A DNA stretch of 64,000 nt from positions 248,001-312,000 of the forward strand of contig NZ_CANMRQ010000002.1 of NCBI RefSeq assembly GCF_947500325.1. Direction: 5' to 3'. Below are positions 32,177 through 42,103 of this stretch, piece by piece. A program made the position numbers and the translations under genes. Source of the DNA: an uncultured Lacinutrix sp. GTDB lineage: Bacteria > Bacteroidota > Bacteroidia > Flavobacteriales > Flavobacteriaceae. The notes under the pieces were generated by a model, which worked only from the letters and a program-made list of their open reading frames with translations, searched no databases and was not told the DNA's origin. Position 1 is the first letter of the stretch; every line of letters starts with the position of its first letter.

Positions 32177-34456
32177 TTATTCAGTCTCTGTTATAGTCGC
32201 TGGTTCTACAGAACTATCGTGAGCACTATGGTACTCTTCTAATAAGTTCATTGTAGCAGATAATAAATCTTTAGTTTCTAATAATAAGCCAAAGTATAAT
32301 GTTGTGTTTTTTGGACTAGACTCTTCTGTTCTTGTACGTGCTACTTGCTTTACAATTTTTGAAGTTACAATGTCAAACACTTCTTTTTTACGATTTAGAA
32401 TGTCTCCAATTTGTTCAAAAGAACGAGAATCAAAAGCATTTTTAATATTTGTAAATAACGCTTCTAATGCATCATCGACTTCTTTTAACTCTTTAACTTG
32501 GCTAAATTTAAGCTTCTTATGATTATTGTTAATGTGTTTATGACTAGCTCTAGAAATATATTCTAAAGATTGTGTCATGTCTTGTAAGTAACCTAAAATA
32601 TTAATGTAGAAGTTACTAGCATCAACACTAGATTCATCTAAATTTTTAATAAAATAAAAGATATTATCTCTTAAATTATCTACTTCTTCAGATAACTTTG
32701 TAACCTGTTTTTTGTTCTTTTTAAGTGATGCTAAATCTTGTTTGGCAAGACCTTTAACAGCATTCGTGTAAATTCTATTTCCGCGTTTTACAACACTAGC
32801 AATATTTTTAGCACTTTCATGTATAACACCTTGTACAGAACTACTTTCTTCAGAAGTTGTTAAACTGTCTTCATCTATAGTTTTGTTAGAAGATTTTTTA
32901 TGAGATAAATAGTTTCTTACTAATAATGTTCCTGTTATTAATAGTAAAATAGGAGTCATTACTTCAGGATTCCATTTAATTAAGAACACTACTAAACCAG
33001 CAGCAATAAAAGCTCCTAATGCAGTACCAAACCATCCGCCAATTACATTTAATACACCAGCAACTCTATAAACAGCACTTTCTCTACCCCAAGCACGATC
33101 TGCAAACGATGTACCCATAGCAACCATAAATGTTACATATGTAGTAGATAAAGGTAATTTCATAGAGGTAGCAATCGCAATTAAAACACCGGCAACCATT
33201 AAGTTAACAGAAGCTCTAATCATATCGAAAGCTGGAGCATCTATACTTTGATCCTTAGTTAAAGCTAGAGCGTCAGGTTTTTCAAAACTTCTTCCTATAC
33301 TTTCTTGAGCAGACTTTGGTATAATAGAACTAATAGCATTGGATAACCAAGACGATCCTTTTACAATACTTCTTGATAACATATTAGGTTCAAATTTCTC
33401 ATGAGTATCACCTTGACGCGATAAGCTTAATTCTGTTTCAGCTACTGTTTTCGCTTTCTTAGAAAACCATAGTGTTAATACCATAATGCCACCAGCTATA
33501 AATAATAATAATGGTTCTGCAGGTACTTTTTTATCTAAAACAGACATTAGCATTGTTGTATCCATTCCGCCAGCTATCCATGCTTCGTAAGAGTGATACG
33601 CAGCCATTGGTACACCAATAAAATTTACTAAGTCATTACCTGAAAAGGCTAATGCTAAACCAAATGTACCAACTGCAATTACTACTAGTAGTATTGTTTT
33701 TTTTGTGATGGCTTGAAAAGCATAAGAAACGCCTAGCCATAATGCAAAACTTCCTAGAATAATAAATATCTCATTACCTTCAACAAGCCCTTTTAAATCT
33801 TTATAATAAGGTGTTCCTTTTAATCCTTTTAAGAAAATAAAATAAGTAATAGCTGTTAAACAAACGGCACCAAATATAGTTCCGAAGTTTTTAACTTTAT
33901 TTTCGATTTGAAATGTAAATATTAAGCGAGAAATCCATTGTACTAATGCACCAACAGAAAAGGCTATGAATACAGACATGACAATACCACTTATAATAGT
34001 GATTGCTTTTTCTGTATTAATAAATTTACTTATATCTGATAAAGTATGTACACTATCTGGAGCATTAATCTTAATTAATGACATGATTACAGCTGCTCCT
34101 AATAAATTAAATACAATAGAAACTGTTGTAGAGGTTGGTAAACCTAAGGTGTTAAAGAAATCCAGTAATAGAATATCTGTAATCATTACTGCCATAAAAA
34201 TGTACATGATTTCGTTAAAACTAAACATCGCAGGTACAAAAATACTTTTACGAGCTACTTCCATCATACCGCTAGAAAAAACGGCTCCAATAAAAATACC
34301 TAAACTTGCAACTATCATAATAGTTCGCATAGAAATAGCTTTAGAACCTATTGCAGAGTTTAAGAAATTAATTGCGTCATTACTAACACCAACTACAATA
34401 TCAGCTACGGCTAAGACTGTAATGGCAATTAACATAAATAAATAAATATTATCCAT
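32177..34456 (-). CDS. Inorganic phosphate transporter (PiT) with C-terminal PhoU-like domain
   Basis: 759 residues, well above the ~400-500 of classic PiT proteins. The N-terminal repeat shows GVSNDAINFLNSAIGSKA, and the second repeat MKLPLSTTYVTFMVAMGTSFADRAWGR; both are PiT signatures. About twelve membrane helices to residue ~545. The remaining ~200 residues are soluble and helical (KNIASVVKRGNRIYTNAVKG ... DALEALFTNIKNAF) and look like a PhoU/DUF47 bundle, which may gate transport by phosphate status. Low-affinity phosphate uptake coupled to ions. The upstream gap carries 11-bp-spaced repeats; the porin gene lies immediately upstream on the same strand. Confidence 0.93.
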   Translation of the reverse strand: MDNIYLFMLIAITVLAVADIVVGVSNDAINFLNSAIGSKAISMRTIMIVASLGIFIGAVFSSGMMEVARKSIFVPAMFSFNEIMYIFMAVMITDILLLDFFNTLGLPTSTTVSIVFNLLGAAVIMSLIKINAPDSVHTLSDISKFINTEKAITIISGIVMSVFIAFSVGALVQWISRLIFTFQIENKVKNFGTIFGAVCLTAITYFIFLKGLKGTPYYKDLKGLVEGNEIFIILGSFALWLGVSYAFQAITKKTILLVVIAVGTFGLALAFSGNDLVNFIGVPMAAYHSYEAWIAGGMDTTMLMSVLDKKVPAEPLLLFIAGGIMVLTLWFSKKAKTVAETELSLSRQGDTHEKFEPNMLSRSIVKGSSWLSNAISSIIPKSAQESIGRSFEKPDALALTKDQSIDAPAFDMIRASVNLMVAGVLIAIATSMKLPLSTTYVTFMVAMGTSFADRAWGRESAVYRVAGVLNVIGGWFGTALGAFIAAGLVVFLIKWNPEVMTPILLLITGTLLVRNYLSHKKSSNKTIDEDSLTTSEESSSVQGVIHESAKNIASVVKRGNRIYTNAVKGLAKQDLASLKKNKKQVTKLSEEVDNLRDNIFYFIKNLDESSVDASNFYINILGYLQDMTQSLEYISRASHKHINNNHKKLKFSQVKELKEVDDALEALFTNIKNAFDSRSFEQIGDILNRKKEVFDIVTSKIVKQVARTRTEESSPKNTTLYFGLLLETKDLLSATMNLLEEYHSAHDSSVEPATITETE

Positions 34457-34479: not shown

Positions 34480-34523
34480 CAAATATCATTAGTGTTATTG
34501 AGTGTAATGTTATCTCAATGTTA
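34480..34523 (-). promoter_or_regulatory. Pho-box-like promoter of the PiT gene
   Basis: The -7 box on the minus strand is GATATTTG (34487-34480; one change from TAnnTTTG). Two exact AATGTTA units (plus strand) lie at 34506-34512 and 34517-34523, 11 bp apart, beginning 26 and 37 bp from the last base of the -7 box. There is no TTG -33 element; the repeats occupy that place, as expected for an activator-dependent promoter. Confidence 0.65.
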
Positions 34524-34537
34524 TTTTTATCTCAATT

Positions 34538-35740
34538 TTAGAAATGAATATCAAATCCTATTCTAAAAGTAATATTATCATCTTTACTATCTACAGTTGT
34601 GTAGCTTAAATCTGCTTGTACTTTTAATTTGTGACCTACAAGGTATTTAGAACCGCCTAATGTATATTGTTCTTGTGGTAAACTTCCAGTTACAGTATCA
34701 TAATCTACAGTTGTAAAACGTCCTGCAATTTCATAGTTACTTTTAAATAGGTAACCTGCTTGTAAGTTAAGTGCATCTCCAGTTAATACTACATCTCCAG
34801 TTGGTGTACCATCTACATCTATAGCAACAGCATCTTTAGCACTACGTGTAGCATATTCTCCCATAAAAGAAAACCCTTGATACTTAAACATAGCATCTAC
34901 AAACACAGTTGTAACATCTGTTTCATATAAAGAATCATCACTTCTAAACATATAATCACCAGCAAAACCACGTTCTCTTACCGATCCTTGATTAAAGTTG
35001 TATGTTGCACCTACCATTAATTTTGGCGCATCTTCACGTTTTAAATCTGCTTGGCTATAATCCCCTTTAGATTTAAAAGTTCCAAATGGTAAAAATTCTA
35101 AACGACCAGTATATTGTAAACCACCTTCATTTCCTTCTGTTACATTACGTCCTTCACCTTGAGAAATAGAAAGTTTTTCACGCATTACAAAATCACCACC
35201 TAATTTAGATTTGTGACGTAATTGAATACCTAAATCACGGTCAATATTAAAACGGCTGTTTAATAAAGAACGATCTATTAATTGTAGATTTCCTGAAGAT
35301 ACTACACGCTCTACATTTCCAGGCAATTTTGTTTGTCCAGCCCAAAGTTCCCAATTTTTAGCAAAATTCCATTTTATAACGGCGTCTAGAATAATACGAG
35401 GTGTATTTCTGTTAAATTCATTAGCTCCAGAAACATCTCTATTAGATAAACCTAGCTCAATTTTATATTTTAATTTAGGGGTATATGCAAAACCATCAAA
35501 CTTTAAACGTGCTCTACGAACTATAAAGTTGTGTTCTGGGCTTGTGTATTGATTGCCATCATGATCCCAAGAAGACATAGAACGCACTTGAAAACGTGGT
35601 GCAAATTTTATACTAAAAGAACTGTCTTTAGCAGTAAAGTTAATTAACCCTTTACCAAATTTAGTATCACTGATTTCCTGTGCATTTGTTGAGATGTATG
35701 CACATAATAATAATGCTGTAAGCGTAATTTTAAGTTTCAT
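34538..35740 (-). CDS. Phosphate-selective porin O/P family outer-membrane protein
   Basis: 400 residues. Signal peptide (MKLKITLTALLLCAYISTNA), then an antiparallel beta-barrel pattern throughout. Typical OprO/OprP features are FAPRFQVRSMSSWDHDG, FIVRRARLKFDGFAYTPKLKYK and ELWAGQTKLPGN. It ends in FDIHF with the C-terminal Phe needed for BAM assembly. It should form an anion or phosphate channel in the outer membrane. Next to the PiT transporter on the same strand, each with its own repeat-bearing promoter. Confidence 0.88.
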   Translation of the reverse strand: MKLKITLTALLLCAYISTNAQEISDTKFGKGLINFTAKDSSFSIKFAPRFQVRSMSSWDHDGNQYTSPEHNFIVRRARLKFDGFAYTPKLKYKIELGLSNRDVSGANEFNRNTPRIILDAVIKWNFAKNWELWAGQTKLPGNVERVVSSGNLQLIDRSLLNSRFNIDRDLGIQLRHKSKLGGDFVMREKLSISQGEGRNVTEGNEGGLQYTGRLEFLPFGTFKSKGDYSQADLKREDAPKLMVGATYNFNQGSVRERGFAGDYMFRSDDSLYETDVTTVFVDAMFKYQGFSFMGEYATRSAKDAVAIDVDGTPTGDVVLTGDALNLQAGYLFKSNYEIAGRFTTVDYDTVTGSLPQEQYTLGGSKYLVGHKLKVQADLSYTTVDSKDDNITFRIGFDIHF

Positions 35741-35765
35741 TATAATTATTAGTTTTTTGTCGCTG

Positions 35766-35809
35766 CAAAGAACTGGTTTTAATGTTAACTCAATGTTTCC
35801 AAATGATTA
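35766..35809 (-). promoter_or_regulatory. Pho-box-like promoter of the porin gene
   Basis: The -7 region on the minus strand is GTTCTTTG (35773-35766). Repeats (plus strand) AATGTTA at 35781-35787, AATGTTT at 35792-35798 and a degenerate ATGATTA at 35803-35809 are 11 bp apart. They begin 15, 26 and 37 bp from the end of the -7 box, the same register as at the PiT and TonB promoters. Confidence 0.65.
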
Positions 35810-35829
35810 ATTTTGAGTGATTTTTCAAA

Positions 35830-35860
35830 TAAAAAAAGACTGCCTTGGCCAAAGCAGTCT
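35830..35860 (-). terminator. Orphan minus-strand terminator; possible small RNA upstream
   Basis: AGACTGC / GCAGTCT stem with inner TTGGCCAA. The A-run at 35831-35837 becomes a T-run on the minus strand only. The nearest minus-strand gene upstream ends at 36568 behind its own terminator, and the porin promoter is downstream, so this hairpin must end some short transcript from about 35861-36050. That stretch contains the palindrome TGTCTTAAGACA (35925-35936) and no coding frame. Confidence 0.6.
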
Positions 35861-36053
35861 CATTAGAAATCATAATAATGTAGTCGACAAAAACTAATAG
35901 ATTATAATGAATAACTAATTGTTTTGTCTTAAGACATTACAAAGATTAATAATGAAGTTAAACTAAAAGTAAAGCTAATATTAAGTATTTATTAAGCTTT
36001 TTTTATGCTGAAATTGAATTTTAGTTTATTGATTTGTAGTGAATTGCATATTC

Positions 36054-36110
36054 AATGTTAATTTAATGTTATGTAATAGTTGCTTTAATGTTATGTAATC
36101 TTTATCTTTG
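36054..36110 (+). promoter_or_regulatory. Four-unit 11-bp repeat array and perfect -7 box before the YwqK-like gene
   Basis: AATGTTA at 36054-36060, 36065-36071 and 36087-36093, with a degenerate ATAGTTG at 36076-36082: four units at exact 11-bp steps. Within it TTTAATGTTATGTAAT (16 bp) is repeated identically at 36062 and 36084. The -7 box TATCTTTG is at 36103-36110, 25 bp before the ATG. Relative to this promoter the units point the opposite way from those at the PiT, porin and TonB promoters. Confidence 0.6.
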
Positions 36111-36135
36111 GATTATAATGTTAAAACCCATAATT

Positions 36136-36495
36136 ATGAAGAAATCAATTTTATTTTCAATTGCCTTTTTAATTGCTGTGGTAACTTTTGCACAAGAAAA
36201 GCGAAATTTAAAAGTTAACAAAGACACTAATTTAATTGAAGTTGTTTATTATCATGACAATGGAGTTGTAAGCCAAACAGGTGCTTACACTACAGATGGT
36301 AAGCTACAAGGCGAGTGGCTTAGTTACGACACAGAAGGCAAGAAACAAGTTTCTGCAAATTATGATAATGGTAAAAAAGTCGGCAAGTGGTTTTTCTGGA
36401 AAGATACCACTCTTAAAGAAGTAGATTATAACAATAATGTTATTGCCAGTGTAAGCGAATGGGAAGTAAAGACTCCTGTCGCAGATAGTAATTAA
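36136..36495 (+). CDS. Exported YwqK/MORN-like repeat protein
   Basis: 119 residues from MKKSILFSIAFLIAVVTFAQ, a clean signal peptide; the frame is open 16 codons further upstream, but the -7 box at 36103-36110 rules that start out. The mature part has MORN-2/YwqK-type beta repeats (YYHDNGVVSQTGAYTTDGKL, GEWLSYDTEGKKQVSANYDN, GKKVGKWFFWKD). Such proteins are often labelled YwqK-family antitoxins by similarity, but exported flavobacterial versions have no known toxin partner and none is present here. Ends at a shared bidirectional terminator. Confidence 0.8.
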   Translation: MKKSILFSIAFLIAVVTFAQEKRNLKVNKDTNLIEVVYYHDNGVVSQTGAYTTDGKLQGEWLSYDTEGKKQVSANYDNGKKVGKWFFWKDTTLKEVDYNNNVIASVSEWEVKTPVADSN

Positions 36496-36516
36496 ATTAT
36501 TGTAATTAAACAAAAT

Positions 36517-36547
36517 AAAAAAGCATCCTCATTGAGGATGCTTTTTT
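36517..36547. terminator. Bidirectional intrinsic terminator (YwqK-like / TonB-partner lipoprotein)
   Basis: A-run, GCATCCTCA, one base, TGAGGATGC, T-run: a perfect stem between two convergent genes. Confidence 0.9.
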
Positions 36548-36567
36548 ATTTAAAAGGCTTTTCCTTA

Positions 36568-37734
36568 TTAGTTTACAGTCCAACTTGCACTCCAAGTTGC
36601 ATAGTCAGTTCCTGTACCATTACCATCTCCAGAAATAAAATCTGCTTCAGTAAATGTATTACCTGTATCGTTTTTCATTTTTTCAATCACATCTGTAAAA
36701 GTTACATCTGTTACTTGTAAATCATTACTTAATACACCAGCTCCAGTAGGAGCGTCTCCTTGGTTACCATCCAAATCAAAACCTTCAGCAAATCCTTGAA
36801 TAGATACATTATTAAAAATGCCTTGTGTTCCTGCTCTTAGTCTAATAGCTTCATTACCAGTTGTAGATCCGTTACCTTCTATAGTTAAATTGTTTACAGT
36901 TGGTTTAGACCAGAACATTGGATTAGAATTGTTTCCTATATCAGTATTATAGCCATCAGCCTCGATACCTTTATCATGATTTGCTCCATGCTTTACATAA
37001 GCATTAGTAATTGTTCCTGTATAACCTTCTGTCCAATCTATAGAATCATCTTGAGCATTTACAACAGAAACATAATCTACATTTACTGTGCCTCCAAAAA
37101 ATTCAATACCGTCATCTTTACCTTCAAAAGCTTGAATGTATTCTACTAAAGTACCATTACCAACACCGTAGAAAGAAAGACCATTGTTTTCAGATTGTCC
37201 ATCTGCTGAACCTCCAGAATATTCAATTCTCATATATCTTATGCTACCAGAATCGTCATTAGCATCTGTACCACCATAAGGTAAACTTGCAATTTCTGAT
37301 GTTGAAGTTGCAGAACCAGCCACAGAGTTTATAGGCGCTTTTCCTAAGATTATTAATCCACCCCAATCACCTGCTTCAGGATTAGAAGCATTAGATGTTA
37401 ATACAATTGGGTTTGCAGCTGTTCCCATGGCGTTAATTTTAGCGCCTTGAGCAATTGCAATATATACATCGCTTCCTTGAGCTAATGCATTAATTGTAGT
37501 TCCAGCAGGAATAGTTAATGTAGTTCCAGCAGACATAATTAAAGAACCGTTTAAAGTGTAATCTGTACCAGATTCTAGAGTTAAATCACTAGTGTAAGTT
37601 CCAGATATTGTTGTTCCAGTAGAAGTAGTACCACCATTGTTTACATTTAATACGACATCTGCAGTATCGTCTGTAGAGCAAGCTGAAAAAAGCATGGCTA
37701 AGATTGCTAAGCCTAATAAAAAATTACGTTTCAT
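36568..37734 (-). CDS. Beta-helix-like surface lipoprotein, partner of the TonB receptor
   Basis: 388 residues. Lipoprotein signal ends LAMLFSAC (Cys19), followed by a Thr/Gly/Ser-rich linker and a repeated beta-strand pattern suggesting a parallel beta-helix (about 50-340: GDWGGLIILGKAPIN, NNGLSFYGVGNGTLVEYIQ, DGIEFFGGTVNVDYVSVVNA). The Asp/Gly-rich turns may bind calcium. No enzyme motif. Lies 45 bp downstream of the TonB-dependent receptor and is surely co-transcribed; by analogy with SusD it may be the surface ligand-binding partner. It shares the receptor's Pho-box-like promoter. Confidence 0.75.
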   Translation of the reverse strand: MKRNFLLGLAILAMLFSACSTDDTADVVLNVNNGGTTSTGTTISGTYTSDLTLESGTDYTLNGSLIMSAGTTLTIPAGTTINALAQGSDVYIAIAQGAKINAMGTAANPIVLTSNASNPEAGDWGGLIILGKAPINSVAGSATSTSEIASLPYGGTDANDDSGSIRYMRIEYSGGSADGQSENNGLSFYGVGNGTLVEYIQAFEGKDDGIEFFGGTVNVDYVSVVNAQDDSIDWTEGYTGTITNAYVKHGANHDKGIEADGYNTDIGNNSNPMFWSKPTVNNLTIEGNGSTTGNEAIRLRAGTQGIFNNVSIQGFAEGFDLDGNQGDAPTGAGVLSNDLQVTDVTFTDVIEKMKNDTGNTFTEADFISGDGNGTGTDYATWSASWTVN

Positions 37735-37779
37735 AGTGTTGTTTTTTAGTTTAATAATGTTGTGTTGTTTTTGATTGTT

Positions 37780-40581
37780 TTAAAATTTATATTTTAATTG
37801 TAGTCCTAAGTCTATTCCTCTTTTGTATTCTGAAAGTGTTACATCTCCAAACGATGTATTTTCTCTAACACGTTCTATACTCGGGTCGAGTAAATTTTTA
37901 GCACTAAAATTAATTTCGAAATCTTTGCCAATTTTGTTCTTTAAAACAAAATCAACAGTAGGTATTCCTTTTTCAATAATATTTCCTAATTGCCCAGAAC
38001 CTAAAGCAGAAATACGATCTGAGAAATATGAGAATACTAAGTTTGCCGTTGGTTTATATTTTTCCCCAAATGTTGGTGTATAACTTAAATCTGCATTAAT
38101 AATTAAAGGAGATGCACCTTGTAATTTATCTGTTCTATTTAAAGTTGAAGAATATAAACCTGTAGAACTCTTTAAGTCTTGTTCTGTATGCATATAAGTT
38201 GCATTAAAGCCTGCAGATAATTTAGGTTTTTCATCTTCGTTTACTAATAATGTTTTTCTAGCTTCTAATTCAATACCTAAAATAGTTGCTTTGTCACCAG
38301 TTCTAAAATAACGTTGCGTTCCTGTAGCATCATTTGCAATAACTAAGTTTATTGGGTCATTAATTTGTTTTCCAAAAGCAGCTATAGAGACTATTTCAGA
38401 ACGGCTTACAAACCATTCGTATTTAAAGTCAATATTATAAATTGATGAGAATGATGGGTTGTTTAATAAATCTGGATTACCTCCAATACGTTGTGTTACA
38501 CCTTCATAAACAAAAGGAGCCATTTCCTTAAACTCTGGAGTAGAAACTGTTTTACTAGCAGAAAAACGAAGGTTTTGATCATCGTTTAAAGCATATTTAA
38601 TACTTAAACTTGGTAAAAAGAATACATTTTCTGTTTCTCTAAATCCTGGTTCATTAGCTGGTAAATTAATTACATCATATTCTATACGTTGTTTAAAAGA
38701 TTCTATTCTAGCGCCTGGTACGACCAACCATTTGTCTCCAAACTTTAACTCTGCATTTGCATAACCTGCATAGACATCTAATTTACCAGAATAGGTGTTT
38801 TCTGGAGCGCCAGGTGCATTTGTGTTTCCGTATTCGTCAACAGCAGCATTAATTACTTTAATATTGTATAAACCGCTTCCATCAAGAGGTAGACTATTTA
38901 AATTAATGTTGTTAACATTAAAATAGCTATTTAAATTAGAAACGTCAGATATAGTATATTGATCATCAACATCAAATCCGTAACGAATATTTTCAAAATC
39001 ACGTGTTTTTGATCTTCCGTTAAAACCAAAATTTAATTTTGTGTTTTCTTTTAATTCATATGTAAAATTTAAACGACTGTTTAGTTCTTCATCTTCAATA
39101 TCTTGGAAATAACGTTGGTTGTCAAAATTTACATTGTTAAAGAAACTTGGATTTGTTGTAGGGTCATTATCTAAAGCTAATTGGTAGTTTTCAATGCTGA
39201 AACGTTTTCTGTCTGGTTCATGAGAGTTAACTCTATTATAACCAATAGCCCAATCTGCTTTTAATTTATCAAATTTATGACTACCTATTAATTGGTTTAC
39301 ATAAATTAAATCTTGATTAAATTGTATGTTTTGTTGGTAGAATCCTATTTGATCATTTACTAAAGATTGCGAATCTCTATTAAACCCATTTCCTCCAATA
39401 CCATAATACCCAACTTGATCTGAAGAGCTATTAATAAATAATGAATTAAACTGTACTTTACTATTACTATCAATCTTATAATTAGCATTTAACATTGCTG
39501 TAGTAGTAGTAGAATATTCAAACTCTTCAGTCTCAGGGAATATTTTTTTAAATACAGAAGTAAAGTCTGTTTGCTTACCTTTTCTATATTCATAATCATT
39601 TTCAAAAGAAGCAGTAGCAAATAAACTTAAACGTGAATCGTTTTCAAAATCAAAAGATTTTCCAGCCGAAGCACCATAACCAACATTTATAGGAGAATTA
39701 ACATTTACAGGATCTACACCATGAGATACAATAACAGCAAATGGATTATGATCATATCTTCCGTAATAACCAAAATAGCCAGTGCCTTCACTTCTTACAA
39801 AATTTTGACCAGCAGCTCTAGAATTAATTCCTGTACTTGCAGTAAAATCAAAAAAGCCTTTTCCTTTGTAATTTTTAGATGAGATATCTACATTGCCAGC
39901 AGCAAAATCGCCATAGAAACGTGAAGAATAGGCTTTGCTAATAGAGACGTTTTCAATAACATCTGATGCAAAAAGATTTAAATCAATATTTTTCTTGTTT
40001 ACATCATTAGATGGCAGTGACAAACCGTTTAAGGTAGTATTTAAATAACGATCGCCTAAACCACGAACATAAACATTACTTGATCCTTCTTGTTTAGAGA
40101 CTCCAGATATTTTTGCTACAGCACCGGCAGCATCGCTAACACCTTTACGAGATAATTCGTCCGCTCCAATACTTTGTTTGATTTCTACAGCTTTTTTCTG
40201 GTCTAATAATAATGCGGTTTCACTTTCACGTTTAGTAGTTGTTTGTATTACTACTTCGTCTAAAGTTGCAGTACTTGCAGCTAAAATGGCATTGATTTCT
40301 TTATTATCACCAGCTATAATTTCAAAAGCAATTTCCTGTGTTTTATAACCTATAAAACTAATCTCAAGAGTGTAACTTCCCGGTTCTATATTGTTTATAG
40401 TATATAATCCATCAAAATCTGTAGTGGCACCTTGAGTAGTACCTTTTATAAGAACATTACATTGTGGTAATGGCTCATTATTGAATTCTTTATCAGACAC
40501 TTTTCCATAAATAGAACCACTGTTTTGGCTAAAAGAGAATAGTGTTGAGAGTAGAGTTAGAGTAAATAAAAATTGTTTCAT
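37780..40581 (-). CDS. TonB-dependent outer-membrane receptor
   Basis: 933 residues. Signal peptide (to FSFSQ), a carboxypeptidase-regulatory-like domain (about 20-105: GSIYGKVSDKEFNNEPLPQC, TTDFDGLYTIN), a TonB-dependent plug (about 125-240: NVYVRGLGDRYLNTTLNG) and a 22-strand-type barrel to the terminal LQLKYKF. It is not SusC-like in its plug, and its partner is not SusD-like. It should import a substrate too large for porins with energy from TonB. The promoter carries a five- to six-unit repeat array, suggesting the substrate is a phosphate source; this is inference. Confidence 0.92.
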   Translation of the reverse strand: MKQFLFTLTLLSTLFSFSQNSGSIYGKVSDKEFNNEPLPQCNVLIKGTTQGATTDFDGLYTINNIEPGSYTLEISFIGYKTQEIAFEIIAGDNKEINAILAASTATLDEVVIQTTTKRESETALLLDQKKAVEIKQSIGADELSRKGVSDAAGAVAKISGVSKQEGSSNVYVRGLGDRYLNTTLNGLSLPSNDVNKKNIDLNLFASDVIENVSISKAYSSRFYGDFAAGNVDISSKNYKGKGFFDFTASTGINSRAAGQNFVRSEGTGYFGYYGRYDHNPFAVIVSHGVDPVNVNSPINVGYGASAGKSFDFENDSRLSLFATASFENDYEYRKGKQTDFTSVFKKIFPETEEFEYSTTTTAMLNANYKIDSNSKVQFNSLFINSSSDQVGYYGIGGNGFNRDSQSLVNDQIGFYQQNIQFNQDLIYVNQLIGSHKFDKLKADWAIGYNRVNSHEPDRKRFSIENYQLALDNDPTTNPSFFNNVNFDNQRYFQDIEDEELNSRLNFTYELKENTKLNFGFNGRSKTRDFENIRYGFDVDDQYTISDVSNLNSYFNVNNINLNSLPLDGSGLYNIKVINAAVDEYGNTNAPGAPENTYSGKLDVYAGYANAELKFGDKWLVVPGARIESFKQRIEYDVINLPANEPGFRETENVFFLPSLSIKYALNDDQNLRFSASKTVSTPEFKEMAPFVYEGVTQRIGGNPDLLNNPSFSSIYNIDFKYEWFVSRSEIVSIAAFGKQINDPINLVIANDATGTQRYFRTGDKATILGIELEARKTLLVNEDEKPKLSAGFNATYMHTEQDLKSSTGLYSSTLNRTDKLQGASPLIINADLSYTPTFGEKYKPTANLVFSYFSDRISALGSGQLGNIIEKGIPTVDFVLKNKIGKDFEINFSAKNLLDPSIERVRENTSFGDVTLSEYKRGIDLGLQLKYKF

Positions 40582-40603
40582 TTTTTAGGTTTAATTTCTG
40601 GTG

Positions 40604-40680
40604 CAAAGAAACTGTTGGGTTGTAAAGTCAAGGTTAACTAGAGGTTAAAGATTCTTGAATAAAAGGTTAGTTTAATGTTA
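40604..40680 (-). promoter_or_regulatory. Pho-box-like array upstream of the TonB receptor operon
   Basis: The -7 box on the minus strand is TTTCTTTG (40611-40604; one change from TAnnTTTG). Plus-strand units at 11-bp steps are GTTGTAA 40619, AAGGTTA 40630, GAGGTTA 40641, TTCTTGA 40652 (degenerate), AAGGTTA 40663 and AATGTTA 40674. The first three begin 15, 26 and 37 bp from the end of the -7 box, matching the porin and PiT promoters. Confidence 0.65.
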
Positions 40681-40708
40681 CTAAAATTGATATTATTTTC
40701 TAATTTGT

Positions 40709-40743
40709 AAACATTAATTTAACATTGGATTTGTATATCTTGC
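40709..40743 (+). promoter_or_regulatory. Repeat pair upstream of dgt
   Basis: AAACATT (40709-40715) and TAACATT (40720-40726), 11 bp apart, in the orientation that faces dgt. A weak -7-like TATCTTG follows at 40736-40742. Distance from the near repeat to the G is 16 bp, one more than in the minus-strand promoters. Confidence 0.4.
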
Positions 40744-40762
40744 AGGCACATAATGTTATACT

Positions 40763-42103
40763 ATGAATTGGGAACAACTACTATCTCTTAAGCGCTTTGG
40801 CGATACTAATAAAAGGTTACGAAAAGAACAGGATGAAACACGTTTGGGTTTCGAAGTGGATTATGATCGTATTATTTTTTCTTCAGAATTTAGAAGTCTA
40901 CAAGATAAAACGCAAGTGATTCCATTATCTCAAACAGATTTTGTTCATACACGTTTAACACATAGTCTAGAAGTTAGTGTTGTTGGGCGTTCTTTAGGTC
41001 GTAGAGTAGGACAAAAAGTATTAGAGAAGCACCCACAATTACAAAATATTCATGGGTACCAAGCTAATGATTTTGGAGCTATAGTAGCTGCAGCTGCATT
41101 AGCTCATGATATAGGAAATCCTCCTTTTGGACATTCTGGAGAAAAAGCAATTGGAGAGTTTTTTATCTCTGGAAATGGACAGCAGTATAAAACACAATTA
41201 GCTAATAAAGAATATCAAGATTTATGCGATTTTGAAGGTAATGCTAATGGGTTTAAAATTGTAACGCAAAGTAGAGATGGTCGTGAAGGTGGATTAAGAT
41301 TGAGTTATGCTACATTAGGTGCGTTTACAAAATATCCAAAAGAATCGTTGCCTAAAAAGCCAACACAGCATATTGCAGATAAAAAATATGGTTTTTTTCA
41401 AAGTGAAAAGCAAGCTTTTACTGCAGTAGCAGAAACATTAGGGATGAAAGAAAGAAGTAACGATGCTATAAGTTACTCACGACACCCTTTAGCTTTTTTA
41501 GTAGAAGCTGCAGATGATATATGTTATACTATTATTGATTTTGAAGACGGTATTAATTTAGGATTAATACAAGAAGAGTTTGCTTTAGAGTATCTTATTA
41601 ATCTAGTTAGGGATAGAATAAATACTAATAAATATCACGACTTAAAAAATACGCAAGACCGTGTAAGTTATTTGCGTGCTTTGGCTATTGGTACTTTAAT
41701 TGATGAAGCAGTATCTATTTTTATGACTAATGAAGAAGCTATTTTAAATGGAGATTTTGACTGTGCCTTACTTGATAAAAGTAAATACGAAGCACAGATA
41801 AATGATATTATAAAATTAAGTGTTGAAAAAATCTATCGATCAAAAGAGGTTGTTGATAAAGAGATAGCTGGTTATGGTGTTATTAGCACTTTATTAAACG
41901 CTTATACTAATGCAGCGAATAATAATTATAATAACGTGGCTTCAAATTATGATAAGCTTATTCTAAAAGGGTTACCAAATACTATAAAAACAAACCAAGA
42001 CAGTTTGTATGAGCGTTTATTAAGTGTATGTCATTATGTTTCGTTGCTATCAGATAGTCAAGCTATTTTGATTTATAAAAAGATAAAAGGATTTAGTTTT
42101 TAA
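40763..42103 (+). CDS. dgt: dGTP triphosphohydrolase (dGTPase)
   Basis: 446 residues of the HD superfamily. Metal ligands are visible: His62/His67 in FVHTRLTHSLEVS, His115-Asp116 in AALAHDIGNPPFGHSGE, and the later EAADDICYTIIDFEDG. It splits dGTP (and often other dNTPs) into deoxynucleoside and tripolyphosphate, adjusting dNTP pools. Divergent from the TonB receptor operon across a 181-bp region full of Pho-box-like repeats. Its end overlaps the convergent dxs stop by 4 bp. Confidence 0.93.
   Translation: MNWEQLLSLKRFGDTNKRLRKEQDETRLGFEVDYDRIIFSSEFRSLQDKTQVIPLSQTDFVHTRLTHSLEVSVVGRSLGRRVGQKVLEKHPQLQNIHGYQANDFGAIVAAAALAHDIGNPPFGHSGEKAIGEFFISGNGQQYKTQLANKEYQDLCDFEGNANGFKIVTQSRDGREGGLRLSYATLGAFTKYPKESLPKKPTQHIADKKYGFFQSEKQAFTAVAETLGMKERSNDAISYSRHPLAFLVEAADDICYTIIDFEDGINLGLIQEEFALEYLINLVRDRINTNKYHDLKNTQDRVSYLRALAIGTLIDEAVSIFMTNEEAILNGDFDCALLDKSKYEAQINDIIKLSVEKIYRSKEVVDKEIAGYGVISTLLNAYTNAANNNYNNVASNYDKLILKGLPNTIKTNQDSLYERLLSVCHYVSLLSDSQAILIYKKIKGFSF

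Follow-up and report, generated by a model that had tools for sequence, protein, structure and literature searches.

What would read the short repeats that stand at 11-bp steps before a phosphate permease gene and several of its neighbours in this flavobacterial locus? In the window (the whole 64-kb stretch of DNA that was analysed) the pair TAACATT-N4-TAACATT occurs five times with at most one mismatch, always within 34506-40726, and these five pairs stand 5' of the genes for a PiT-type permease, a porin, a TonB-dependent receptor, a small MORN-type protein and a dGTP triphosphohydrolase (dgt). We hold with good confidence that the arrays are tandem operators of a flavobacterial PhoB-type regulator, which would combine the standard 7+4 build of a Pho box with a word of its own, TAACATT. 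The arrays, their phase to the promoter, their conservation and their presence before a PhoB-like gene are seen directly.

Repeat arrays and promoters of the window

The presumed targets on the minus strand are the PiT-type phosphate permease (32177..34456; PF01384 PHO4, 99.9 bits, cut-off 33.7), the outer-membrane porin of the Porin_O_P family (34538..35740; PF07396, 45.8 bits, cut-off 20.9) and the TonB-dependent receptor (37780..40581; PF00593, PF07715 and PF13715). The putative PiT operator (34506..34523, minus strand) reads TAACATT-GAGA-TAACATT. Measured from the final base of the -7 box GATATTTG (34480..34487, minus strand), its units at 34506 and 34517, each TAACATT when read on the minus strand, are 26 and 37 bp away; the place at 15 bp holds TCAATAA, without a unit. 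The sequence GATATTTGC is found again upstream of PiT relatives. Judged by PiT, the closest named relatives of the flavobacterium include Bizionia and Lacinutrix. In the putative porin operator (35781..35809, minus strand) TAACATT at 35781, AAACATT at 35792 and a degenerate TAATCAT take the places 15, 26 and 37 bp from the -7 box GTTCTTTG (35766..35773, minus strand). The putative TonB operator (40619..40680, minus strand) is the longest, with six phased positions at 11-bp steps: TTACAAC (40619), TAACCTT (40630), TAACCTC (40641), the degenerate TCAAGAA (40652), TAACCTT (40663) and TAACATT (40674). Counted from the end of the -7 box TTTCTTTG (40604..40611, minus strand), TTACAAC takes the 15-bp place, and the places at 26 and 37 bp are filled as well.

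Re-reading of the sequence confirmed the repeat coordinates that a first-pass annotation had given at PiT, porin and TonB. Its claim of units at 15, 26 and 37 bp from the box in all three promoters stands for TonB; at PiT only the 26- and 37-bp places are filled, and at the porin the unit at 37 bp is degenerate. The same annotation describes the -7 boxes as lacking a TTG -33 element. Two pairs had been missed, at 36054-36071 before the MORN-type gene and at 40709-40726 before dgt.

The first of these belongs to a site (36054..36123, plus strand) with AATGTTA at 36054, 36065, 36087 and 36117, and its orientation is opposite to that of the PiT, porin and TonB arrays. The unit at 36087 lies just 5' and that at 36117 just 3' of the -7 box TATCTTTG (36103-36110, plus strand), so that the box is flanked by reverse-oriented units. 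The likely target is the small MORN-type gene (36136..36495, plus strand), which has a weak MORN_2 match (PF07661, 21.4 bits, below the cut-off of 29.6); the ATG at 36136 was chosen as the start of a frame that is open from 36088. The second pair, AAACATT-AATT-TAACATT (40709..40726, plus strand), is phased and ends 16 bp before the end of the -7-like TATATCTTG. It precedes dgt (40763..42103, plus strand; NF002205, 446.7 bits, cut-off 439), a possible target. The phased pair points toward dgt, which has a -7-like TATCTTGC of its own and may be phosphate-regulated. Another gene of the window (36568..37734, minus strand), 3' of the TonB receptor gene, encodes a 388-aa protein with a lipobox-like N-terminus and without a family match in Pfam or NCBIfam; we read it as a candidate lipoprotein.

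With at most one mismatch the five pairs of the window compare with 0.28 expected, and none of 100 shuffles reached five. At two mismatches there is no excess, either in the window (5 pairs against a shuffle mean of 4.26, with 44 of 100 shuffles reaching 5) or in the whole 4.57-Mb genome (243 pairs against 308 for the reversed pattern), and near-exact pairs together with conservation were therefore used as the measure. The signal resides in near-exact pairs, clustering and conservation, not in two-mismatch counts. Exact pairs number only five in the 4.57 Mb of the genome.

Conservation, phase and gene classes

Thirteen genomes of the genus hold 40 exact pairs against 2 for the reversed pattern. 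We also fetched 80 loci around PiT relatives and kept 79 (1.44 Mb), leaving out one (L109) in which the match does not reach the PiT start. At the 11-bp period these loci contain 266 pairs with at most one mismatch against 7 reversed, and 91 exact pairs against none; the excess continues at 22 bp (88 v 6), 33 bp (87 v 6) and 44 bp (52 v 3). The 79 loci are related and their counts are not independent, yet they come from many genera by name and the spacers between units are variable. The build of 7-bp direct repeats with 4-bp spacers at an 11-bp period, as in a Pho box, is thus present in the window and across the 79 loci. An extra peak at 30 bp (42 v 6 reversed) comes mainly from a conserved unit after the MORN-type -7 box, 30 bp on from 36087; by our reading 13 of at least 14 examples of this step lie in the MORN-type region.

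By our sums over 296 Bacteroidota genomes, exact pairs against reversed ones number 30 vs 13 in 30 genomes of the family (the own genome included), 8 vs 0 in six more of the order and 21 vs 2 in 37 more of the class, where two genomes (G257 and G411) show three exact units in a row. The remaining 223 Bacteroidota genomes, outside the class, give 32 vs 31, without an excess. From these counts the element seems class-wide, with weak enrichment in much of the family sample.

The arrays keep a fixed helical distance to the core promoter at PiT, porin and TonB. Phase was measured for units with at most one mismatch lying within 85 bp of the chosen [AC]TTTG[CT] box, with the final base of the box as reference; such a box was located in 164 of 202 upstreams (PiT 58/79, porin 69/77, TonB 37/46). 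Over the three genes 332 of 411 units stand at a distance of 4 modulo 11 from the box end (109/160 at PiT, 134/156 at the porin and 89/95 at TonB). The distances peak at 26 and 37 bp for PiT, at 15 and 26 bp for the porin and at 26, 59 and 70 bp for TonB; pooled, the peaks are at 15, 26, 37, 59 and 70 bp. Twelve porin promoters have their best pair exactly one turn further out, its end 26 bp, not 15, from that of the box. Sequence drift would not account for this phase, whereas a protein taking up one turn with each unit and contacting RNA polymerase would.

For the association with gene classes a weighted unit score was used, replacing a weight matrix trained on PiT sites alone that was too strict, and a score of at least 10.8 was looked for within 200 bp upstream. 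Such a score is found in 63 of 79 PiT, 69 of 77 porin, 65 of 69 MORN-type and 42 of 46 TonB upstreams (at least 35% identity). Other upstreams of the same loci, a set that leaves out those overlapping a target region or shorter than 200 bp, reach it in 11 of 530 cases. TonB-like proteins of less than 35% identity, kept apart, have it in 2 of 15 and the 388-aa class in 14 of 54. Counted directly, a pair with at most two mismatches lies within 160 bp in 64 of the 79 PiT upstreams. The 46/51 score for dgt is inflated by the region shared with TonB, and we prefer the count of pairs with at most two mismatches on the dgt strand (29 of 51 upstreams).

The element is thus present at the phosphate-acquisition genes for PiT, porin and TonB receptor, and other phosphate genes carry it to differing degrees. 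The first-pass annotation had pointed to phosphatase genes and pstS as places to look. For phosphatases of the PhoX family this fails: only 1 of 26 upstreams reaches 10.4 and none 10.8, in a sample of 30 loci, four without 200 bp of upstream, in which many PF05787 matches are long proteins; the family gives no support. The expectation for pstS is borne out in 5 of 17 upstreams of the pstS type (at least 10.4) and not in the other 12, four of the 17 loci being below the family cut-off or fragments. Searches for the gene itself found it in none of the 13 genus genomes and in 12 of the 149 from the family. In two loci (L225 and L229) pstS seems, by our reading, to lie directly behind the porin end, where the window has PiT. 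Phytase genes have the pair directly upstream in 0 of 30 cases. A frame of receptor size stands before phytase, and in 20 of the 30 phytase loci its upstream was scored: 10 of 20 reach 10.4, nine of them also 10.8, mostly in reverse orientation, against 0 to 4 of 20 and 0 to 2 of 20, respectively, for control periods.

The neighbours of the 40 exact matches of the genus (38 examined in context and the window's own two) were also listed, and only one of the 38 lies inside a called reading frame. Eleven are in the MORN/porin region, six at PiT and three between phoB and a divergent gene for a secreted protein. Twenty of the 40 thus lie at PiT, porin/MORN or phoB, in favour of the link to phosphate genes that the first-pass annotation had proposed to check, and the other half is elsewhere: nine at a CAP-domain protein, four at a 743-aa protein (OmpA-type in the one of four scanned), two at an 825-aa protein (TonB-receptor type in the one of two scanned) and four at other places. 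The CAP-domain (YkwD-like) protein has an exact pair 50 to 52 bp upstream in 9 of 13 genus genomes (L111:5711, which is G000:C3:6710, and L165, L168, L171, L172, L174, L175, L179 and L189), and we know of no phosphate link for it. Targets of the CAP-domain and OmpA-type classes hint at an envelope response of wider scope. One further exact pair (L178:3001) lies between an Exo_endo_phos_3 gene, whose called start is 8 bp away, and a divergent gene for a 955-aa protein with carboxypeptidase-regulatory domains; these two are plausible phosphate genes.

The PhoB-like regulator

Of the five exact matches in the genome, the one at C15:60876 lies 72 bp before an OmpR-type regulator gene. The product has receiver and winged-helix domains and its gene adjoins that of a PhoR-type kinase, the arrangement of a PhoB-type regulator. 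Its first NCBIfam match, among 100 families matched, is PhoB (TIGR02154), at 213.1 bits, below the curated equivalog cut-off of 296.2. The DNA-binding part matches the solved PhoB structure 1gxp (1.2e-14), and other chains of the OmpR family match better. The next gene encodes the kinase, with PnpS and PhoR as first matches. A PF04101 glycosyltransferase gene (L112:7680-8828) stands tail to tail with this PhoR-like kinase gene.

Relatives of phoB were found at 1e-60 in 97 of 100 family genomes, and the 30 best loci of the 97, which include the own genome and one of the same genus, were examined. Within 260 bp upstream, 24 of the 30 reach 10.4 and 15 reach 11.0, where shuffles expect 0.4 and 0.15; periods of 8-10 and 12-14 bp give 0 to 2 of 30 at threshold. 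The suggestion that the repeats would recur before phoBR is thereby upheld. In 21 of the 30 loci the distance from the called start to the best pair is 59 to 84 bp, and in 28 this pair is directed away from phoB. By our count in one locus, the site precedes the -7 box end by about 46 bp and is not on the box.

The pair is thus found at the regulator's own gene in 24 of 30 loci, and the divergent neighbour could also be a target. In two of the 30 loci, from two other genera, this neighbour is related to the TonB receptor of the window (identity 48% and 40% across the available part). Counted from the -7 end, its units stand at 26, 37, 59 and 70 bp in one locus and at 26, 59 and 70 bp in the other. 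In most others it is a secreted-protein gene related to that of the own genome, and the site may therefore serve that gene, phoB or both.

The genome encodes five OmpR-type regulators. The upstream of the PhoB-like one scores 12.4 and the others 10.4, 9.4, 9.2 and 8.2, so that one other also reaches the threshold used for phoB. Among the three family genomes without a PhoB match at 1e-60, G070 (82% complete) keeps the PiT site, in G077 (86% complete) a site lies 1,051 bp 5' of PiT, and G045 (complete) is without one at PiT, as are several PhoB-bearing genomes.

Since the word is conserved in many marine flavobacteria and stands before the likely regulator gene, it is most likely the docking site of that regulator. 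The first-pass proposal of a PhoB-type activator with its own recognition word gains from the genus count (40 vs 2), the phoB upstreams (24/30) and the phase (332/411).

Known systems, mechanism and alternatives

The Bacillus subtilis PhoP boxes are repeats of the TTAACA type with a period of about 11 bp, serve a phosphate regulon and stand in a Gram-positive promoter context; we take their hexamer to be very similar to the TAACATT unit. Pho boxes in general consist of direct repeats of 11 bp in which seven bases are conserved and four less so, with a word that depends on the species, according to the available text of one review (PMC4415409). By the same text, the E. coli box shares with our arrays at least two direct repeats of 11 bp and a PhoB-family regulator, and differs in its word, CTGTCAT, where the window has TAACATT (PMC4415409). 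The arrays of the window further differ from E. coli in their Bacteroidota -7 box and in the distance from its end to the nearest unit, which is 15 or 26 bp. That the CTGTCAT pair is absent, as had been stated earlier, proved correct: with three mismatches CTGTCAT-N4-CTGTCAT has 4 matches in the window against 4.49 expected, which is no sign of a Pho box of the E. coli type.

The closest published match is the DAP-seq motif of PhoP from Riemerella anatipestifer, a flavobacterium in the wide sense: its core, TTTAACA, overlaps T-TAACATT, and PhoP bound its own promoter (PMC9603813, available text). The part of that article at hand gives 583 peaks and does not give a tandem geometry, a promoter phase or a phosphate gene set (PMC9603813). 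The phosphate response of Flavobacterium has already been mapped by expression (PMC8115612, available text). On phosphate depletion the PhoBR operon of F. johnsoniae showed values of +8.0 for a TonB receptor, +9.9 for a lipoprotein and +3.1 for PhoB in a table column FC, which we took as log2; in the same available text the operon includes a phosphate-regulated PF04101 gene (PMC8115612). In Bacteroides fragilis PhoB is needed for pstC expression and binds the pstC promoter, and in a column that we took as the phoB mutant the pst genes are strongly negative and a phosphate/sulphate permease stands at -52.2 (PMC3547664, available text). The F. johnsoniae and B. fragilis regulons thus contain the same gene classes as the window, and the available parts of the two papers do not give a recognition sequence (PMC8115612, PMC3547664). 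In the open-licence literature, as far as its available text goes (including PMC4796936 and PMC9723704; subscription papers and preprints were outside the scope), we found no tandem recognition sequence with promoter geometry for the group. What is new here is most likely the lineage-specific recognition word, the 7+4 tandem build and the PhoB-type switch being known.

From the architecture of the arrays we infer PhoB as the binder, activation as the effect and phosphate as the signal, the last by analogy with F. johnsoniae. Low phosphate would lead PhoR, whose kinase gene is on contig C15, to phosphorylate PhoB. The winged-helix domains of PhoB would then bind head to tail, one per 11-bp turn, over two to six units. 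The arrays at PiT, porin and TonB would occupy the place of the -33 element, and a nearest unit 15 bp away, or whole turns further, would put PhoB and RNA polymerase on the same face of the DNA. Bound PhoB would recruit the polymerase and turn the promoter on. Autoregulation, up or down, is likely at phoB and the MORN-type gene, whose units are directed away from them.

Reverse orientation at phoB, the MORN-type gene and the phytase-linked receptors could also mean that the same protein represses there, which would make the element a two-way switch. This reading is compatible with PhoB as the regulator, and we give it somewhat less than an even chance. The MORN-type units at 36087 and 36117 bracket the -7 box, where a bound protein would block the polymerase, and relatives keep this 30-bp spacing (42 v 6). 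The phoB site, however, was counted about 46 bp upstream of the box end and not on it, and F. johnsoniae PhoB is induced by phosphate depletion (PMC8115612, available text).

Several observations go against PhoB itself. Of the 40 exact matches in the genus, half are at genes without a known phosphate role, the PhoB call is below its cut-off, a second OmpR-type gene scores 10.4 upstream, and PhoX (1/26), pstS (5/17) and phytase (0/30) upstreams seldom or never carry the pair. OmpR-family regulators as a group bind direct repeats of 10-11 bp, and the arrays might serve another member, for example one responsive to redox or envelope state, with the phosphate genes as part of a broad regulon. Five OmpR-type regulators are encoded in the genome, and CAP-domain, OmpA-type and other genes account for half of the exact matches in the genus. 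From outside the genus, the available texts add in favour of another regulator that the Riemerella motif was judged highly similar to the E. coli ArcA motif (PMC9603813), and against the PhoB reading that Riemerella pstS rose 8-fold on deletion of the system (PMC5399024) and that the OprP porin of the F. johnsoniae PhoBR operon showed no phosphate response (PMC8115612). Against another regulator, the pair of the PhoB-like gene is by far the strongest of the five (12.4), 24 of 30 phoB loci keep one, and PiT and porin are among the most constant targets. We therefore consider a different OmpR-family protein unlikely. That the pairs are an AT-rich coincidence selected from many possible patterns, as the two-mismatch counts without excess in window and genome might suggest, is in our view refuted, with next to no probability left, by the near-exact pairs of the window (5 vs 0.28), those of the relatives (266 vs 7) and the fixed phase to the -7 box.

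A PhoB-type regulator thus remains the preferred reader of the arrays. A bolder extension, in which we have rather limited confidence, would make TAACATT the general Pho box of the Bacteroidia, running forward at uptake genes, with two to six units that replace the -33 element, and in reverse at phoB, MORN-type genes and phytase-linked receptors, with a regulon that includes the dGTP triphosphohydrolase and the CAP-domain and OmpA-type surface proteins. A defined operator would make the phosphate regulon readable from any genome, and would flag phosphate-related TonB receptors and lipoproteins among those without a known substrate. With it, the placement of an activator with respect to the unusual -7 promoter of the Bacteroidota could also be tested at base-pair resolution.
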